NCBI RefSeq assembly: GCF_026712205.1
Contig: NZ_JAPPUW010000001.1
Coordinates: forward strand, 248,001-312,000
DNA length: 64,000 nt
Source of the DNA: Pelomonas aquatica
Lineage (GTDB): Bacteria; Pseudomonadota; Gammaproteobacteria; Burkholderiales; Burkholderiaceae_C
Direction of reading: 5' to 3'
This document shows, piece after piece, positions 24,484 through 32,481 of the stretch. A program made the position numbers and the translations under genes. The notes below the pieces were generated by a model. The model worked only from the letters and a program-made list of their open reading frames with translations. It made no database searches and was not told the origin of the DNA. Every line of letters begins with the position of its first letter. Within the stretch, counting starts at the first letter, position 1.

Positions 24484-25734
24484 TTGAAAGAAGAGCTGCG
24501 CAAACGCCGGTCCTGGCTGGATGGCTTCATGGCCTATCCGGCCCCGGCCGGCCTGAGCGAAACCGCGCTGCGCGACAACATCATCCTGCTCGATCAGGCC
24601 CTCTACACGCTGTGGAGCCTGGGCGACAACCTGATCTACGCGTGGACGCCCGAGGCCAGCGGCCTGCGCGTGCTGGTCGCGCCGCACCAGACGCTGACCG
24701 AGTACACGCTGGGCGACGGCCGGCTGCCGCAGGCCGAGATCACGCGCCGCACGCGGCTGCTGGACAAGCTGCTGTCCAACCAGGAGCACCTGGCCGCCGA
24801 CGCCTTCGACGCGGTGGCCCTGGCCCTGGGCGTCGAGCCCCGTCTCGTCGAGCTGCCCTTCGCGCCCGAGCGCGGCCTGGGCCTGCCGCTGATCGCCGCC
24901 ATCGCGGCGCGCTACGGCATCCGCCTCGTCGAGGACCGCGCCGTCATCCTGTTCGACGCGGTCGGCTTCTCGCTGCTGACGCCGCTGCAGCAGGTCGTGC
25001 AGCTCAACAGCCTGTCCTGCTCGGTCAACGCGGCCTATGCCAAGCTGCTGGCCCGCGAGATCAACATCAACTTCGCGCGCACGACGACGGGCGACGGCTT
25101 CTACATCTGGAACCGCATGCGCGGCGTGGCGGCCAATGTCGAGCTCTACCAGCTGATGCAGTTCATCCTGGCCGACAACGCGCTGGCCCGCGAGCGCGCC
25201 ACGCGCCCGGAGTCGGTGCCGCGGCTGCGCGCCTGCTTCCACGTCGGCTCGCACTACGAGTTCTACCAGTCCGAGGGCCTGAACCCGACCTCGTTCAGCT
25301 ATTTGGTCGGCCAGGTCACGATCGAGCTGGCGCGCATGATCGAGCACGCCCAGCCGGGCCAGATCCTGGTCGGCAAGTTCAACACGCTGATGCACGACGA
25401 GGCCAGCGGCGAGGACGTGCGCATCGACAGCCTGGACTTCGTCGAGCGCACGCGCGCGCCGCTGCGCAGCCTCAACGGCCTCAAGCTCGCCGGCTCCGAG
25501 GTCGACGAGATCGCCTGCTACCTGACCGGCCGGCGCGACCTCTTCGGCCTGTGGGGCATCAGCGAATACGAGATCGCCGACAAGCACGGCCTGATCCACC
25601 GCGTCTACAACGCCAAGATCAACATCCACCGCCGCAACGGCGAGCCCATCTACCTCGGCCTGCGCGAGGAAGACCTGCCCGGGGACGCGCCGCGCAGCGT
25701 GGCGGACACGGACTTCGTGCCGATGCGGGCCTGA
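24484..25734 (+). CDS. Nucleotidyl-cyclase-like domain protein of unknown function
   Basis: A 416-residue soluble protein starting with TTG after a TGGAG site. Residues 150-300 show a degenerate class III cyclase pattern: ILFDAVGFSLLTPLQQ with Asp158 and, 46 residues on, TTTGDGFYIWN with Asp204. These correspond to the two metal-binding aspartates. The rest (N-terminal 150 residues, C-terminal 100) matches nothing I recognise. I do not see the Asn/Arg transition-state pair of active cyclases, so it may bind rather than make cyclic nucleotide. It lies 85 bases upstream of a second cyclase-domain gene. Confidence 0.6.
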   Translation: MKEELRKRRSWLDGFMAYPAPAGLSETALRDNIILLDQALYTLWSLGDNLIYAWTPEASGLRVLVAPHQTLTEYTLGDGRLPQAEITRRTRLLDKLLSNQEHLAADAFDAVALALGVEPRLVELPFAPERGLGLPLIAAIAARYGIRLVEDRAVILFDAVGFSLLTPLQQVVQLNSLSCSVNAAYAKLLAREININFARTTTGDGFYIWNRMRGVAANVELYQLMQFILADNALARERATRPESVPRLRACFHVGSHYEFYQSEGLNPTSFSYLVGQVTIELARMIEHAQPGQILVGKFNTLMHDEASGEDVRIDSLDFVERTRAPLRSLNGLKLAGSEVDEIACYLTGRRDLFGLWGISEYEIADKHGLIHRVYNAKINIHRRNGEPIYLGLREEDLPGDAPRSVADTDFVPMRA

Positions 25735-25819: not shown

Positions 25820-28800
25820 GTGACCGAGTCCCCTGCCTCCCATGCCGCCAGCGCGCCCGCCCTCGGCCAGCGCCGGCTGCTGACCCTGCTCTTCGTCGAC
25901 CTGAGCGGCTCCACCGCCATGGCCGAGTGGATGGAGGCCGAGCATTACGCGGCCATGCTGGCCGGGCTGCGCACGTTGTACGAACGCATCGTGCCCCACC
26001 ACGGCGGCGTCATCGCGCGCATCCAGGGCGACGGCATGCTGGCCCTGTTCGGCCACCCCGAGGTGCGCGAGGACGACGGCCGCCGCGCCACCGAGGCAGC
26101 GCTGGAGCTGCACGCCGCCGTGCGCGAGCTGCTGCCGCCAGGCCCCCGCCCGGCCGACTTCCCCGGCCTGGCCCTGCACAGCGGCATCCATGCCGGCATC
26201 GTCCTCGTCAACGAGGGCGACCAGATGCGCGGGCGCTTCGAGCTGCTCGGCAACGCCCCCAATATCGCCGCCCGGCTGTCCGAGGCCGCCAAGCGCGACG
26301 AGATCATCGCCAGCGAGGAGAGCCTGGGCCTGCAGAGCCAGTTCTTCGAGACCGGGCCGCGCTTCTCGCTGCAGCTGCGCGGCCGCGCGACGCCGCTGGC
26401 CGCCTACCGCGTGCACGGCCGCGCCGCCATCGGCCGGCGCTTCGAGGCCAGCATGCGCCGCGGCCTGGCGCCCTTTGTCGGCCGCGGCGCCGAGCTGGCC
26501 GCGCTGGAGGCCGCCCTGGCCCGCACGCTGGCCGGCCACACGCTGTGGCTGGGCATACGCGCCGGTGCCGGCGTCGGCAAGACGCGGCTCATCGAGAAGT
26601 TCCTGCGCCACGCCGAAGACCAGGCTGACCGGCCCTGCCGCATCCACCGCGGCTACTGCGAGAGCTATCTCAGCGCCGAGCCGCTGCAGCCCTTTCTGCA
26701 GATGCTGCGCGCGCTCGACGGCCTCGAGGACGCGCCGCCCGAGCTCTTCGCGGCCCAGCACAGCGCCCCCGGCCAGCGCGCCGACGCGCTGCTCGCGCTG
26801 CTGCTCGCGCTGGCGCGCCGCACGCCCCAGTTGGTCTGCATCGACGACCTGCAATGGGCCGACGACGCCTCGCTGCGCCTGCTGCACCGGCTGCGCGCCG
26901 CCGCCCAGGCCCAGGGCCTGGCGCTGCTGCTGCTCAGCGCCAGCCGCCCGACGGGCGAGCCGCTGCCGGGTGCCCACGACGACCCGGCCCAGCTCATCGA
27001 GCTGCCGCCGCTCAGCGAGACCGAGGCCGCGCGCGCCGTGCAGCAGCTGCTGCCGCAGATCGACCCCTTCATCGCCGCCGAGGTGCAGCGCCACGCCGGC
27101 GGCAACCCCCTCTTCATCGAGGAGCTCTGCCACGCGGCGGCCGACGCCGGCGAGGGCCTGGCCGAGGGCCAGAGCGGCTCGGCCTGGCTGGCCGCGCTGG
27201 TCGAGTCGCGCGTCGACCGCCTCGCGCCCGAGCAGGCCCGGCTCGTGCGCATCGCGGCCGTCATCGGCAACGTCATCCCGGTCTGGCTGCTGGAGATCCT
27301 GACCGGCTATGGCGAGCAGCATCCCGCCGTGCGCGCCCTCGCGGCCCAGGACTTCATCTTTCCCGACCAGCGCCCCGGCCATCTGCGCTTCAAGCACGGC
27401 ATCACGCGCGACGTCGTCTACGAAGCCACCGGCCTGCACGAGCGCCAGGCCCTGCACCGCCACATCAGCGTCGCGCTGGCCGCGCGCGGCGGCCGCGAGA
27501 GCCAGCTGCACGAGCAGCTCGCCTACCACGACGCCGCCGCCAACGACTGGCCCGCCGCCGCCCGCCATGCCGAGGCCGCCGGCGACCAGGCCCTGGCCGC
27601 CTCGGCGCTGGACCGCGCCAAGAAGCAGTTCCGCGCCGCGCTGGCCGCGCTGGAGTTCATGCAGCGCGCCGGCGAAGGCGAAGACCAGGCCCGCCAACGC
27701 CGCCGCCGCTGGGTCGGCATCGCCCAGCGCCTGGGCATGGCCTGCGTCTTCGACGCCTCGCAGGACGACCTGCGCGTGCTCAGGCACGCCGCCGAACTGG
27801 CCCGCGCCGACGGCGACGCCAACCTCGTCGCCCGCACCGAATACTGGCTGGCCTATGTCGGCTACGCGCTGGGCGAGACCCGCGACAGCCTGCGCCATGC
27901 GCGCGCCGCCGTGCAGACCGCCCAGGGCTGCGGCGACACCGCGCTGCTGGCCCAGCTGCCCGGCACCGTCGGCCAGTTGCAGGCCGCCGCGGCCGACTAC
28001 GCCAGCGCGCTGCCGATGCTGGACCTGGCCATCGGCCGCCAGCGCGAGCGCGCCAGCAAGAGCGCCGTGAACCAGATCGGCCTGTCCTTCTCGCTGTGCT
28101 GCCGCGCCTACGTGCTGGGCGACCAGGGCCATTTCCAGCGCGCCCACGAGGTCTTCGCCGAGGCGCTGGCGCCCTTCGACGGCAGCAGCCACGCCGTCGA
28201 AGCCAGCATCCAGGGCTGGCGCGCCGCCGTGCTGCTGTGGCAGGGGCGCTGGGCCGAAGCCCGCGAGGCCGCGGCCGTGGCCCACCGCGTGGGCGCCCAG
28301 GTGCGCAGCATGTTCACCTGCGCGATGGGCCATGCGGCCGGTGCCTACGGCGCCTGGATGCAGGAGCACGACCCGGCCGCGCGCCAGCACATCCTCGACG
28401 CCACCGCCTGGCTCGCGCCGCGCGGCGGCGGCCTGTACAGCAGCTTCCAGCATGGCTGGCTGGCCGACATCCTGTCCGACCAGGGCGACGCCGGCGCCGC
28501 GCGCCAGCATGTCGCGCTGGCCCTGAAGCGCGGCCGCCAGCACGACTGGGTCGGCGGCGCGATGGCCTACCGCGCGGCGGCCCGGCTGGCCGCCCGCATG
28601 GGCGACACGGCGCGCGCGCAGCGCTACCTGGCCCTGGCCCGCAGCGCCGGCGAGCGGCGCAACTCCGCCCACGAGGCCGCCGTCACGGCCCTGCTGGAGG
28701 CCGAGCTGAAGCTGGACGACGGCTGGCGCGCGGCGCGCGACCGGGCCAACGCCGAGTTCGAGCGCATGGGCATGAGCGGCTTCGTGGAACGGGCGCTGCT

Positions 28801-28822
28801 GGCGGCGACCCGGCCCGAATAA
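25820..28822 (+). CDS. Adenylate/guanylate cyclase domain - AAA ATPase - TPR signalling protein
   Basis: A 1000-residue protein starting with GTG. Residues 20-200 are a class III cyclase domain with Asp27 (LFVDLSGSTAM), Asp71 (IQGDGMLALFG) and the GNAPNIAARLSEAA motif that carries the transition-state Asn and Arg. Residues 220-560 are an AAA/STAND-type ATPase: FVGRGAELAALE, Walker A AGAGVGKTRLI, Walker B LVCIDDLQWADD. The remainder is Ala-rich helical TPR-like repeats. Such proteins are thought to couple a sensed signal to cAMP or cGMP synthesis. No membrane segment is seen. The stop lies ten bases from the end of the convergent peroxidase-P450 gene. Confidence 0.85.
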   Translation: MTESPASHAASAPALGQRRLLTLLFVDLSGSTAMAEWMEAEHYAAMLAGLRTLYERIVPHHGGVIARIQGDGMLALFGHPEVREDDGRRATEAALELHAAVRELLPPGPRPADFPGLALHSGIHAGIVLVNEGDQMRGRFELLGNAPNIAARLSEAAKRDEIIASEESLGLQSQFFETGPRFSLQLRGRATPLAAYRVHGRAAIGRRFEASMRRGLAPFVGRGAELAALEAALARTLAGHTLWLGIRAGAGVGKTRLIEKFLRHAEDQADRPCRIHRGYCESYLSAEPLQPFLQMLRALDGLEDAPPELFAAQHSAPGQRADALLALLLALARRTPQLVCIDDLQWADDASLRLLHRLRAAAQAQGLALLLLSASRPTGEPLPGAHDDPAQLIELPPLSETEAARAVQQLLPQIDPFIAAEVQRHAGGNPLFIEELCHAAADAGEGLAEGQSGSAWLAALVESRVDRLAPEQARLVRIAAVIGNVIPVWLLEILTGYGEQHPAVRALAAQDFIFPDQRPGHLRFKHGITRDVVYEATGLHERQALHRHISVALAARGGRESQLHEQLAYHDAAANDWPAAARHAEAAGDQALAASALDRAKKQFRAALAALEFMQRAGEGEDQARQRRRRWVGIAQRLGMACVFDASQDDLRVLRHAAELARADGDANLVARTEYWLAYVGYALGETRDSLRHARAAVQTAQGCGDTALLAQLPGTVGQLQAAAADYASALPMLDLAIGRQRERASKSAVNQIGLSFSLCCRAYVLGDQGHFQRAHEVFAEALAPFDGSSHAVEASIQGWRAAVLLWQGRWAEAREAAAVAHRVGAQVRSMFTCAMGHAAGAYGAWMQEHDPAARQHILDATAWLAPRGGGLYSSFQHGWLADILSDQGDAGAARQHVALALKRGRQHDWVGGAMAYRAAARLAARMGDTARAQRYLALARSAGERRNSAHEAAVTALLEAELKLDDGWRAARDRANAEFERMGMSGFVERALLAATRPE

Positions 28823-28831
28823 GAGCGCCTT

Positions 28832-31800
28832 CTAGACGCTCAGCGCCACCACGGTCGGCGCCCCGGTGAAGCGCAGCACCCCGGCATCCAGCACCGCCGC
28901 GATGACGCCCAGCATGACGCCCATGCCCATGCCATAGCCCGGGCAGGCATGCGGCGGCGGGCCGGCCGGGTCGGCGCGGTCGCCGCCGAAGGCGATGTGA
29001 TGGCGCAGCGGGTCCTGCTGGGTGGCCGAGCCGAGGGCCACGACCAGGGTGTCGCCGGCCTTCACGTCGACGCCGCCCAGCCGGTGGTCGGCGCGCGACC
29101 GGCGCCAGACCTGGAAGGGCGTGGGCTTGTAGTTCAGCGTCGCGACCAGCGCGGGCCGCAGCCGCGCGACGGCGGCCGTGTAGCGCTCGGGCAGGCTGGC
29201 CGTGGCCGGCACCTCGTGCCATTGCGGCTGCAAGTCCCAGAGCTTGCGCGTCTGCACCCAGATGGCCAGCGTGGCCAGCAGATTGGCATGCGTCGTCGGC
29301 GGGAAGCCGAGCATAATGCCGGCCAGCATGCGCGTGGGCAGGTCGGCCGGTGCGCCGGGCACGGCGCCGGCCGCGGCCAGGATGGCCTGGGACAGCTTGG
29401 GCAACTGCTCGAAGGGCGTGGCGGCCAGCCAGCGGTCCACGGCCTCGGTGAAGGCGCTGCCCGCCTGGCGGCCGGCGGCACAGACGGCCGGCGTCGGATG
29501 CGGGCCGAAGACGTAGCGCGACACGCGGAACAGCGCCGCCGGGCAGCGCGGCGCCTCCGCCTCGCCGGGCGGGTGGAACTCGGTGCCCCAGACGTAACGC
29601 CCGTCGGGCGGGCCGAACCAGATCTGGCAGAGCTTGGCCAGCACGCCTTCGCTGAGGCGCTCCAGGTCCAGCGGCGTGTCGGTGGGCAGGTCGGCGGGCT
29701 TCTGGCCGGGCGGGAAGGCGGCCAGCAGGGCCTGGGCCTCCTGGCGCAGGCCGGCGATGCCGGCGCTGGCGACCTGGTAGGCGAGCATGAAGGAGTCGGC
29801 CTCGCTGACGCCTTCGAGGATCTTGTTGACGGCCGGCGCCTGCTCGCGGTGGCCGCTGTCGTCGTCCAGGCCCAGGTAGCCGACGCCGACCGAATCGGCC
29901 ATGCGTTCGCCGTAGCCGGCCACCGAGTAGCGGTCGGGCGCATTCCTCAGCACCTCCTGCACGCGGTCGGCGGCGCCGACGAGCACGCCATAGGCCGTCG
30001 CGACGACGCCGCCCGGCTGCTGACGCACCCAGGCCCAGGCGGCGTCGCGGCGGTTCGGGTCTTCCAGCCAGCCCTGCCAGGCGGCGAAGTCGTCCCGCGC
30101 CGGCATGGCGGCCGGCAGCGCCGCGGCAGGCAGCTGCGGCAGCGGCAGCTCGACGAGACCGGGCAGGGCCTTGAGCGCGCGGATGGAGGGCACGAAGAAA
30201 TAGGCGCCCCACTGCAGCGTGACGAAGGGCTCGGGGCCGAGGTCGATCTCGTAGGCGCGCTTGTCGTGCTCGAAGGGGTAGAGGCGCGGGCCCGCGCCCG
30301 GGTCGACGACGCCGAGCAGCGGGTCGCTCTGCGCCGAGTAGCCGCCGCTGGCATTGCCGCCGGCCACCCAGCGCTGGATGACCTCGAACTGCTCGGCCAG
30401 GTGGGCGTTGTAGGCCATGAAGATCAGGCCGCGGTCGGCGTCGTCCGCGGGGTGGTCGCGGTCCGGCGGCGGGCCGTAGCTCATGCCGCGGCGCAGGATG
30501 CGCGGCATGCGGGCCTTGGCGAAGGCCTGGTCGGCGCCCAGGTCGCGCGGGTTGGTGCGCCGGATGTGGGCATGGAAGGGGCAGAGCGCGCCCTTGGCAT
30601 CGGCCTCGTAGTTGAAGTCGTTGCCTTCGTTCAGCGCGTGGTCGTCGGCCAGCGGCTCGCCCGTGCGCCAGCGGCCCATCAGCTTGGCCAGCAGCAGCTC
30701 CTTGGGCAGGCCGGTGCGCCGCGCCTCGGCGGCCATGCGGGCGTCCAGCCGGCCGACGTACTGGCGCAGCTTGCGCACGGCCAGGAAGCTGCCGCGGTCC
30801 AGCAGCGCGTCGGGCTGCTCGGGCACCGCGTAGCCCTTGTCGCGCGCGGTCGCATAACCCTGCAGCACCTCGCCGTCGCGCACGCGGTCGTCCCAGCGCT
30901 GGCCGGTGGGCTGCGGCGCCTTCCAGTCCGGCACCGGCTGGCTGATGCCGTCCTTGAAGCCGAAGCTCTCCTGCTCCAGCGCACTGCCGCGCAGCGGCTC
31001 GACGGCCATCAGCGCCAGGCCCGTGCCCTGGGTCAGCGCCTGGGCGACGGCATCGATGCGGTCGCGGTCCGCCTGGGTGATGACCTCGCCGGGCTCGGGG
31101 CTCGCAAAACGGAGCTGCACGAGCAGATGGGCGCCGGCCGGGTCGAAGCGGTCGCGGCCGTTGACGTGGGGCGCCAGCGCCCAATGGGCCGGGTGGTTGT
31201 GGCGCACGTCGCCGAGCAGGCCGGCGCGCGCGGCCATGCCCTCCTTGAAGGCCTGCGGGAAGCGCTCCAGCCGCGCCGGCGGCAGGCCCAGCGCGCCCAG
31301 GCCGGCCAGCGTCAGCGCGACCTGGGTCCAGACGCCCTGCAGCGGCCCGGCCTGGGGCGGCTGCTGGCCCTCGGCCGTGACCGGCGCCGTCGACAGCCAG
31401 GCCAGCGCGGGGCCGGGCTGGGCCACGCGCATCAGCAGCAGCGCGCCGCGGTTGGCGGGCAGCCTGGTCAGCAGGCCGGCCTGCAGGTCGGCGTCGGCCA
31501 GCGGCAGCTCGCGCGCCTGCACGGCGGGCGGCGTCAGCGTGCTCTCGAACCACTGCAGCATCGCGAAGTGGCGGCGGCGCAGCTGCTCGCCGGGCGTGCT
31601 GCCGGTGCCGACGGGGAAGTGCTCGCGCGTGCCCAGCCGCGTCAGCTCGAACAGCACGTCCTGGGTCGCGCGCAGCAGCACGCGGCCGTCCCAGGCCTGG
31701 TCATTGAAATAGCGCTGCAAGGTGTAGAGACCCGCCAGCGGCACGAGGCCGCGCGCGGCCATCGCGAAGCGCTCGGCCGGGTCGGTGGGCAGCGGCGCGA

Positions 31801-32371
31801 CCTCGCCGGCGGCCGGCGCACGCAGCCGATCGGCGCCCAGCTCGCTGGCATGGCCGCGCTGGGCGGCCTCCAGCCGCGACAGGTATTCGGCGTCGCTGAC
31901 GCTGCGGCCGGATTCGATGAAGAGGAAGTCGGCCGACACCTCGTGCGCCCGCACCCAGCGCGCATAGGCCTCGAAGCTGCAGTTGCAGGACAGCTCGTAG
32001 CCCTCGGCGTGGCAGAGGATGAGGTCCAGCGTGGAGCCGAGCTGGTCCCAGATGACCCGCATATAGGGCTCCCAGCCGCCGTCGAAGTTGACGTTCAGCA
32101 GCAGCCGGTCGGGGACGCCGTCCCGGCCGTCGACGACGGCCCAGCGGAAGGAGTGCACGATGCGCCAGCGCGCGACGATGTCGCTGTAGCGCGAGGCCGG
32201 CGCGCTGGATTCGCGCGAGCCCAGGCGCAGGCCGTTGAGCGTGCGCAGCACCTTGCGCAGGCGGTCGACATGGGTCGCCACCTCGAGCGCGTCGACGAAT
32301 CCGGGCTTGATGTCGGCCAGCAGCACCAGATCGGTGATGCCGCCGAGTTGAACGTCGTTGCCGCGTGCCAT
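28832..32371 (-). CDS. DyP-type heme peroxidase - cytochrome P450 fusion protein
   Basis: A 1179-residue single frame with three parts. Residues 1-260 form an N-terminal region with VHSFRWAVV and LLNVNFDGGWEPYM, probably ferredoxin-like and not assigned. Residues about 265-735 are a dye-decolorizing peroxidase: GFKDG at 471-475 (catalytic Asp474), AHIRRTNPRD with likely proximal His602, and RRGMSYG with the distal Arg at 627-628. Residues about 760-1179 are a P450: an I-helix-like segment LGFPPTTHANLL near 1021 and the heme-thiolate loop HACPGYGMG with Cys1143. The K-helix position reads AVAR instead of ExxR. There is no signal peptide or membrane helix. A GGGAGG site supports the ATG at 32371. 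A peroxygenase or hydroperoxide-converting role is inferred. Confidence 0.85.
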   Translation of the reverse strand: MARGNDVQLGGITDLVLLADIKPGFVDALEVATHVDRLRKVLRTLNGLRLGSRESSAPASRYSDIVARWRIVHSFRWAVVDGRDGVPDRLLLNVNFDGGWEPYMRVIWDQLGSTLDLILCHAEGYELSCNCSFEAYARWVRAHEVSADFLFIESGRSVSDAEYLSRLEAAQRGHASELGADRLRAPAAGEVAPLPTDPAERFAMAARGLVPLAGLYTLQRYFNDQAWDGRVLLRATQDVLFELTRLGTREHFPVGTGSTPGEQLRRRHFAMLQWFESTLTPPAVQARELPLADADLQAGLLTRLPANRGALLLMRVAQPGPALAWLSTAPVTAEGQQPPQAGPLQGVWTQVALTLAGLGALGLPPARLERFPQAFKEGMAARAGLLGDVRHNHPAHWALAPHVNGRDRFDPAGAHLLVQLRFASPEPGEVITQADRDRIDAVAQALTQGTGLALMAVEPLRGSALEQESFGFKDGISQPVPDWKAPQPTGQRWDDRVRDGEVLQGYATARDKGYAVPEQPDALLDRGSFLAVRKLRQYVGRLDARMAAEARRTGLPKELLLAKLMGRWRTGEPLADDHALNEGNDFNYEADAKGALCPFHAHIRRTNPRDLGADQAFAKARMPRILRRGMSYGPPPDRDHPADDADRGLIFMAYNAHLAEQFEVIQRWVAGGNASGGYSAQSDPLLGVVDPGAGPRLYPFEHDKRAYEIDLGPEPFVTLQWGAYFFVPSIRALKALPGLVELPLPQLPAAALPAAMPARDDFAAWQGWLEDPNRRDAAWAWVRQQPGGVVATAYGVLVGAADRVQEVLRNAPDRYSVAGYGERMADSVGVGYLGLDDDSGHREQAPAVNKILEGVSEADSFMLAYQVASAGIAGLRQEAQALLAAFPPGQKPADLPTDTPLDLERLSEGVLAKLCQIWFGPPDGRYVWGTEFHPPGEAEAPRCPAALFRVSRYVFGPHPTPAVCAAGRQAGSAFTEAVDRWLAATPFEQLPKLSQAILAAAGAVPGAPADLPTRMLAGIMLGFPPTTHANLLATLAIWVQTRKLWDLQPQWHEVPATASLPERYTAAVARLRPALVATLNYKPTPFQVWRRSRADHRLGGVDVKAGDTLVVALGSATQQDPLRHHIAFGGDRADPAGPPPHACPGYGMGMGVMLGVIAAVLDAGVLRFTGAPTVVALSV

Positions 32372-32481
32372 GGCTTCCCTCCCAGGATGAAGCGCCAAGT
32401 ATCCCGGCGCGGCATGACGGCCCGACCGCGGTGAACCCATAAGTTTGTTGATGCCGCGCGGTTCGCATCGGTCCGCGCCAG

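Follow-up and report, generated by a model that had tools for sequence, protein, structure and literature searches.

The window analyzed here, a 64,000-nucleotide stretch of Pelomonas aquatica DNA (RefSeq assembly GCF_026712205.1, contig NZ_JAPPUW010000001.1, positions 248,001 to 312,000), contains on its minus strand a single open frame at 28832-32371 that encodes 1179 residues and a stop, and converges on a plus strand gene at 25820-28822 whose 1000 amino acid product combines a class III cyclase domain, an AAA_16 ATPase, and TPR. Although the minus strand frame allows an earlier ATG at 32440, the ATG at 32371 is preceded five bases upstream by GGGAGGG (32377-32383), a likely ribosome-binding site; no signal peptide is apparent by eye. 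A further plus strand gene next to the cyclase gene (24484-25734) encodes a 416 amino acid protein of unknown family which has no Pfam hit, lies in the same cluster in 19 loci including the window, and is linked by neighborhood only; we suspected by eye that it might be a second cyclase, but this is not supported by profile-profile alignment with the cyclase gene (hhalign probability 0.2).

One frame joining an N-terminal domain, a DyP peroxidase, and a P450-fold domain

A sequence-only reading had proposed that the 1179-residue frame fuses a DyP-type peroxidase with an intact active site to a cytochrome P450 with a heme-thiolate loop, and this observation is confirmed. GFKDG (residues 471-475), His602 within AHIRRTNPR, Arg627-628, and HACPG with Cys1143 are all found in the translation. 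The fusion is not an assembly artefact, since we found 68 loci in other genomes and 62 full-length one-frame members counting the window's own; distant members include near-duplicates across collections (for example loci L049, L050, and L145; L032 and L146; L022 and L130, judged by equal length or name of the contigs), so that counts of loci are not counts of independent events. The first part, which the sequence-only reading missed, comprises the N-terminal ~280 residues, which are a separate gene elsewhere; the N-terminal domain proper (residues about 8-185, 31817-32350, minus strand) contains DGGWEPYMR, invariant in 62 of 62 members, and is encoded by a separate ~200 amino acid gene upstream of DyP in several other bacteria.

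The DyP domain (residues about 345-737, 30161-31339, minus strand) is recognized by NCBIfam TIGR01413 (2.2e-29, 102.8 bits against a cut-off of 100.5) and by Pfam Dyp_perox_C (1.5e-5, 25.2 against a cut-off of 20), and its closest PDB sequence is the Deinococcus radiodurans DyP 8re3 (E 5.8e-45). In a Foldseek search with the full-length model, ranks 1-27 are DyPs, with TM-scores up to 0.79 of the target, although this model is only moderately confident (pLDDT 82) and the heme region at residues 576-619 is poorly modelled (below 50). GFKDG (30947-30961, minus strand) contains the distal Asp474, and the proximal heme ligand His602 (30566-30568, minus strand) and the distal Arg627 (30491-30493, minus strand) are aligned to His324 and Arg348 of D. 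radiodurans DyP, pocket residues named in PMC10820274; Asp474, Gly475, His602, and Arg627 are each conserved in 62 of 62 members.

The C-terminal domain (residues about 760-1179, 28835-30094, minus strand) proved harder to recognize. The sequence-only reading had offered the absence of a P450 profile match in this region as grounds for refutation, and at Pfam sensitivity this condition is formally fulfilled: Pfam PF00067 finds neither the window protein nor the C-terminal part of any of 46 family members, and NCBIfam gives only TxtE at E 0.098. Stronger evidence overturns this result: i) a profile of 46 relatives yields 25 PDB sequence hits, 24 of which are P450s, though the best E is only 0.0015; ii) AlphaFold2 predicts residues 741-1179 with pLDDT 93.8 and pTM 0.93; iii) all 50 listed Foldseek hits to this model are P450s, with 1621 matches at E<=0.001 and TM-scores of about 0.5-0.65; and iv) hhalign against eight canonical P450 sequences aligns 360 columns with a probability of 98.8. 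A chance P450-like motif was set aside on this fold and profile evidence, and we refer to a divergent P450-fold domain rather than to a Pfam-recognized P450.

The P450-fold domain is unorthodox. The Cys-ligand loop FGGDRADPAGPPPHACPG (residues 1128-1145, 28937-28990, minus strand) has extra residues between FG and HxC relative to the P450 signature FGxGx(H/R)xCxG, but F1128, G1129, H1141, Cys1143, and G1145 are each conserved in 62 of 62 members. In contrast, the K-helix ExxR is replaced by ATLN in the window protein (residues 1077-1080, 29132-29143, minus strand) and is absent in 61 of 62 members, with EQMR retained only in L029; and in the I-helix segment GIMLGFPPTTHAN (residues 1018-1030, 29282-29320, minus strand; register from hhalign) the acid is replaced by Pro1025 in 61 of 62 members while the alcohol is kept as Thr or Ser1026 in 62 of 62. 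Loss of ExxR could mean a weakened P450 domain. A conventional monooxygenase driven by redox partners, with DyP as an unrelated passenger, is consistent with the fold and the retained I-helix alcohol, but we consider it the least likely reading given the loss of the I-helix acid and ExxR, and the occurrence of the pair as adjacent separate genes or re-fused differently in other genomes (see below).

A conserved gene neighborhood

The gene belongs to a conserved cassette. A cyclase-AAA-TPR gene lies downstream in 60 of 66 loci with at least 1 kb of downstream sequence (58 convergent, 2 on the same strand), against one full copy in the window's genome; convergent orientation means that most pairs are not one operon. 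The window cyclase matches Pfam Guanylate_cyc (1.4e-11) and AAA_16 (1.7e-17), and the two metal-binding Asps and the Walker A Lys are kept in 45 of 45 aligned partners. A CRP-type regulator lies beyond the cyclase in 7 loci. A patatin-type phospholipase gene is directly upstream on the same strand in 10 loci, 8 of them within 300 bp, and in the Bradyrhizobium loci L036 and L040 the patatin, DyP-P450, and cyclase all run in one direction. Sister-cassette patatins are recognized by Pfam (7.4e-11, 8.4e-13, and 2.5e-11), and the GxSxG Ser and DG(A/G) Asp positions (G87, S89, G91, D460, G461) are invariant in 13 aligned cassette patatins. However, the window's own branch lacks an adjacent patatin, the close patatin subfamily is absent from its genome at E<=1e-20, and patatin is not supported as an exclusive marker of the cassette because 8 of 16 related patatins found in 548 genomes have no DyP in the stretch retrieved. 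A PDB sequence search with the patatin of L055 found nothing at E<=0.1.

Seven other genomes (L121-L127) have the set rearranged on one strand, with cyclase-AAA-TPR and DyP in 7 of 7, patatin in 6 of 7, and a recognizable P450 in 5 of 7 (L123 and L127 gave no P450 Pfam hit). These P450s carry Asn at the I-helix Thr position in 5 of 5 aligned, the position of the Asn named for prostacyclin synthase (PGIS), plant allene oxide synthase (AOS), and LDS (PMC13049297); three sister-cassette DyPs deviate from GXXDG (RDN, RDN, and TDS). The pair is re-fused differently in L121-L126. The window's genome also contains a second, paralogous DyP-P450 fusion gene, followed by a winged-helix-AAA-TPR regulator, and a split version of this paralogue in L119 consists of a DyP gene, a P450 gene (Pfam 2.4e-14), and a winged-helix-AAA-TPR gene. 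The sequence-only reading missed this second gene, the conserved cyclase partner, and the absence of ExxR and the I-helix acid.

Because the partner is a signal-transduction ATPase in both of these unrelated cassettes, and ExxR is lost in 61 of 62 members, one or both heme domains could have become a redox or ligand sensor reporting to the cyclase-AAA-TPR or winged-helix-AAA-TPR partner; we regard this as unlikely, since the DyP catalytic residues and P450 Cys pocket are invariant in 62 of 62 and the phospholipase neighbors suggest substrate supply. A somewhat better, but still doubtful, alternative is peroxide handling, in which DyP, P450, and in other cassettes a catalase-related protein would all consume H2O2, forming an oxidative-stress or peroxygenase module acting on a non-lipid small molecule, with the cyclase as stress regulator. 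Consistent with this, the DyP residues for H2O2 use are intact, and a catalase-related gene lies beside DyP in L128 and L129 (Pfam 0.0028 and 0.0012, both below cut-off), L100 and L102 (3e-4 and 1.2e-8), and L095 (by annotation), although the L094 and L095 proteins gave no Pfam hit and a PDB sequence search with the catalase-family protein of L102 found nothing at E<=0.1; peroxide handling does not, however, explain patatin in the 10 fusion loci and 6 of the 7 rearranged sets, or the I-helix Asn.

Cyclases, STAND-type ATPases, and patatins are also parts used in conflict or anti-phage systems. PADLOC matches the window cyclase domain to Pycsar cyclases (PycC models, best 4.7e-15) and the winged-helix STAND weakly to mads_8, and one copy of the gene lies on a plasmid next to a Tn3 transposase; but PADLOC gives no match for the DyP-P450 or the patatin, class III cyclases are widespread, and in the near branch the gene keeps ordinary neighbors, with a RecQ-type gene in the same cluster in 20 loci. 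We consider a defence role very unlikely. Spread by viruses or plasmids was also set aside: six peptide patterns found no match in a collection of viral contigs, and although 82 plasmid records match, none does so over 80% of the query, the best (L093, Sphingopyxis) being a truncated member.

A possible route from membrane lipid to cyclic nucleotide

We tentatively favor, at less than even confidence, a cytoplasmic two-heme enzyme driven by peroxide or hydroperoxide. In this view, the DyP half would be a working histidine-ligated peroxidase; the P450 half would be a thiolate-heme domain that does not use the usual O2/NAD(P)H cycle but breaks an O-O bond, either of a hydroperoxide handed on by the DyP half or of H2O2; the substrate would most likely be a fatty acid cut from membrane lipid by the patatin-type phospholipase found in sister cassettes, and the product an oxidized lipid; and the cyclase-AAA-TPR protein would sense the product or the state of the enzyme and make a cyclic nucleotide. 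The fusion, the folds, the conserved catalytic residues, the loss of ExxR and of the I-helix acid, and the repeated gene set are established by our analysis, whereas heme loading, the chemistry (including H2O2-dependent dye oxidation and any oxygenation of fatty acids or isomerization of their hydroperoxides), the lipid substrate, patatin activity, and sensing are all inferred. DyPs, moreover, are not known as fatty-acid dioxygenases.

A more far-reaching possibility, which we consider unlikely but not excluded, is a bacterial lipid-mediator circuit built from parts unrelated to those of animals and fungi, in which a phospholipase frees a fatty acid, a DyP-P450 two-heme enzyme turns it into an oxidized lipid, and a cyclase-STAND receptor converts this into a cyclic-nucleotide signal read by a CRP-type regulator. 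Such a circuit would be a functional counterpart of phospholipase A2, cyclooxygenase/prostacyclin synthase, and adenylate cyclase, in which either a P450 or a catalase-related protein could serve as the second heme enzyme. Literature searches, in which most subscription papers were not represented, listed no report of a bacterial DyP-P450 fusion or of this gene set. DyPs have few known natural substrates, and the linked phospholipase and cyclase give the first concrete pathway to test for this group; if the signaling reading holds, bacteria have their own route from membrane lipid through an oxidized lipid to a cyclic nucleotide.

Comparison with known heme enzymes and fusions

The partner gene resembles class III cyclase-AAA-TPR proteins in having cyclase, AAA_16, and TPR (NCBIfam TOMM kinase/cyclase 4.7e-44, but far below its cut-off), and no link of such proteins to DyP or P450 was met in the literature searched. 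The D. radiodurans DyP (8re2, 8re3), the closest solved structure, is flanked by an upstream gene related to the window's N-terminal domain and a downstream catalase-family gene, but it is stand-alone, has a GXXDM motif, is reported inactive at physiological pH (PMC10820274), and has a catalase-family protein in place of P450. The Pseudomonas aeruginosa oleate diol synthase pair (10S-DOX and 7,10-DS) consists of bacterial heme peroxidase relatives acting on fatty acids in two steps (PMC4496055), but these are two proteins of the di-heme cytochrome c peroxidase family, without a P450.

Heme peroxidase-P450 fusions are already known from oomycetes and fungi, with a different peroxidase, and a bacterial DyP-P450 would show that nature joined a peroxidase to a P450 more than once. 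Oomycete CYP5619 fusions have the reverse domain order, retain EXXR, and have a peroxidase of a different superfamily. The sequence-only reading had suggested that the bacterial arrangement could be an independent solution to the chemistry of the fungal Ppo/linoleate diol synthase enzymes, in which a P450 rearranges the hydroperoxide; this interpretation is only partly supported, in that a rare single gene does join the two folds with both proximal ligands kept, and the parallel gains from the phospholipase neighbors, the split version of the pair, the HxCxG Cys pocket, and the I-helix Asn in the P450s of sister cassettes (PMC13049297), while the shared chemistry remains an inference. The fungal fusions (CYP6001-6005 series) similarly join an N-terminal heme peroxidase-type enzyme to a C-terminal P450 with an HxCxG Cys pocket, the P450 partner being reported as self-sufficient (PMC13049297, PMC5919972); they differ in that the bacterial peroxidase half is a DyP (ferredoxin-like barrel) rather than a dioxygenase of the peroxidase-cyclooxygenase superfamily, so that the resemblance is one of possible function only, and in that the bacterial P450 has lost ExxR, the protein has an extra N-terminal domain, and the gene has a cyclase neighbor.

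A single frame joining a DyP peroxidase to a predicted P450 fold

One frame of 1179 residues runs from 32371 to 28832 on the minus strand, with a strong ribosome-binding sequence before its ATG, and three parts can be told apart: an N-terminal domain (residues about 8-185), a DyP peroxidase (about 345-737), and a C-terminal domain (about 760-1179). The DyP assignment is plain. The P450 assignment is not, since Pfam misses it both for the window protein and for all 46 family members scanned; however, i) a profile of the family's C-terminal part finds P450s in the PDB in 24 of 25 hits, the best at E 0.0015; ii) AlphaFold2 models this part at pLDDT 93.8, and all 50 listed Foldseek hits are P450s; iii) profile-profile alignment to eight canonical P450 sequences covers 360 columns at probability 98.8; and iv) although the full-length model is weaker (pLDDT 82, with the DyP heme region below 50), its Foldseek list holds DyPs at ranks 1-27 and P450s from rank 28. 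The observation made in the sequence-only reading, that a single gene fuses a DyP-type peroxidase to a cytochrome P450, is thus confirmed, and our confidence in the fusion and in the predicted P450 fold is very high.

A peptide-pattern scan of 84,980 genomes returned 68 loci (denoted here by L numbers) in Roseateles/Pelomonas, Variovorax, Rubrivivax, Pseudorhodoferax, Xenophilus, Bradyrhizobium, and others. Of 69 ORFs, counting the window's own gene, 62 are full length in one frame, and 7 were dropped as cut by contig ends or otherwise incomplete. In those 62, Asp474, Gly475, His602, Arg627, Phe651, Phe1128, Gly1129, His1141, Cys1143, and Gly1145 never vary; of the five pocket residues named for the Deinococcus radiodurans DyP (PMC10820274), His, Asp, Arg, and Phe are invariant, while Leu649 varies (Leu in 38 of 62). 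The family is sporadic, with strong matches in 3 of 300 Burkholderiales genomes and 2 of 398 genomes drawn from the phylum (the window's own included), and in 8 of 150 genomes of the same family. A Sphingopyxis plasmid copy (L093, 9962-12391) lacks its N-terminal part and lies next to a Tn3 transposase gene, yet keeps the cyclase and CRP neighbors described below.

The P450 part is odd in several respects. The K-helix ExxR is absent in 61 of 62 (ATLN in the window) but present as EQMR in L029, which supports the register; at the I-helix the acid position is Pro in 61 of 62 and the alcohol position Thr or Ser in 62 of 62; and the Cys loop has extra residues between FG and HxC. These are losses of parts used for O2 activation and heme-pocket stability in ordinary P450s, while the thiolate ligand is kept. 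Such a pattern fits a P450 that cleaves an existing O-O bond, as hydroperoxide isomerases and peroxygenases do, but would also fit a weakened domain.

Conserved neighbors of the fusion gene

We examined 66 loci with at least 1 kb of downstream sequence (the window, L001-L068 where long enough, L093, L077, L078, and the paralogous locus L074). In 60 of these a cyclase-AAA-TPR gene lies downstream: 58 are convergent, 45 of them within 300 bp, and 2 are on the same strand; the exceptions are L003, L005, L008, L056, L061, and the paralog L074. The window's genome holds one full copy, and both metal Asps and the Walker A Lys are kept in 45 of 45. The NCBIfam TOMM kinase/cyclase model matches the AAA-TPR part of the window gene (25820-28822) at 4.7e-44, far below its cut-off. 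A 416-aa protein without a Pfam hit, encoded beside the cyclase gene at 24484-25734, belongs to the same cluster in 19 loci including the window. Beyond the cyclase gene lies a CRP-type regulator in 7 loci (L033, L045, L049, L050, L051, L055, and L093; an overlapping hit in L032 is not counted). In L030, L059, and L066 a gene of one cluster is found upstream of the fusion, and the L030 copy is a thiolase by Pfam.

A patatin-type phospholipase gene lies upstream on the same strand in 10 loci, 8 within 300 bp, all in the branch more distant from the window, and a further locus, L107, adds one. In Bradyrhizobium L036 and L040 the order is patatin, DyP-P450, cyclase, all in one direction. Ser89 and Asp460 of the dyad are invariant in 13 cassette patatins. 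The window's own branch, however, has no patatin beside the gene, and its genome has none of this close subfamily at E<=1e-20, although it has 8 patatins of other kinds; moreover, sister patatins in loci L147-L154 (GGTSAG instead of GG.SSG) have no DyP in the stretch fetched and no shared neighbor that we could see.

The same parts in other arrangements

A search of 150 genomes of the family with the paralog, followed by reading of the stretches, gave three further arrangements. First, the window's genome has a second DyP-P450 gene (P0002; about 42370-45792 of contig C3 of that genome, G000, and 9370-12795 of L074) in which NCBIfam sees both DyP (5.9e-15) and P450 (9.5e-16), each below curated cut-offs; its P450 part is closer to ordinary P450s (ESRR, HFSLGAGPHHCIG), and seven bases on lies a winged-helix-AAA-TPR regulator gene. 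In L119 (8365-14025) the same set is split into a DyP gene, a P450 gene (Pfam 2.4e-14), and a winged-helix-AAA-TPR gene in a row. Second, seven loci (L121-L127) have, on one strand, cyclase-AAA-TPR, a P450 joined to the N-terminal domain, DyP and, in 6 of 7, patatin. A P450 is recognizable in 5 of 7 (L121, L122, L124, and L125 by profile, L126 by alignment), but Pfam passes its cut-off in only two, L122 and L125; in the 5 aligned, Asn stands at the I-helix Thr position, and ExxR is kept in 4. Three of the seven DyPs (L123, L124, and L126) deviate from GXXDG. Third, L128 and L129 have DyP convergent to a catalase-related gene (L128 8438-9472, L129 8698-9681) and cyclase-AAA-TPR, the catalase-related gene lying between the two, where other cassettes have a P450; the catalase match is below Pfam's cut-off.

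In other phyla the nearest DyPs follow an N-terminal-domain gene, and are followed by a catalase-family gene in Deinococcus, Rhodococcus, and Acinetobacter; of the ten other plasmid neighborhoods read, these three show it directly downstream, one (Terrarubrum) has a catalase two genes upstream, and six show none annotated. The crystallized D. radiodurans DyP (L100, 3944-7279) lies between a gene related to the window's N-terminal domain and a catalase-family gene, although no operon or catalase is mentioned in the passages of PMC10820274 that we consulted. In L136 and L137, DyP is preceded by a double N-terminal-domain protein and an oxidoreductase that looks like a GMC enzyme by eye.

Possible function and relation to known fusions

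Fungal dioxygenase-P450 fusions are described as self-sufficient, with HxC kept in the Cys pocket, and an Asn near the heme is named in LDS, plant AOS, and PGIS, with Thr in some fungal AOS (PMC13049297). The window P450 has HxCxG and Thr at that place; the sister P450s have Asn. Together with the phospholipase, this points to an oxidized fatty acid that would be made in two heme steps. That a P450 and a catalase-related protein alternate beside DyP recalls that allene oxide synthases exist as P450s and as catalase relatives (PMC5617202), but H2O2 is a substrate common to DyP and catalases, and the rival reading of the gene set as one for peroxide handling remains open. DyP as maker of the hydroperoxide is the weakest step, as no DyP is known to us to do so. 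The cyclase-AAA-TPR partner suggests a signaling output.

The parallel drawn in the sequence-only reading with fungal enzymes that join a heme peroxidase-like dioxygenase to a hydroperoxide-rearranging P450 is partly supported. We wish to stress that the fusion, the invariant residues, and the recurring gene set are what the analysis shows, whereas heme binding, catalysis, lipid substrate, and signaling are all inferred from sequence, predicted structure, and gene order. We have high confidence that the gene set is a functional cassette, and consider an O-O-cleaving P450 likely; a lipid substrate is about as likely as not, and signaling to the cyclase somewhat less likely than not.

Our literature searches listed no bacterial DyP-P450 fusion and no such gene set. 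If it proves to be a lipid-to-cyclic-nucleotide circuit, which is only a possibility on present evidence, the system would be new in kind; as an enzyme, it follows the known idea of a peroxidase-P450 fusion, but is built on an unrelated peroxidase.
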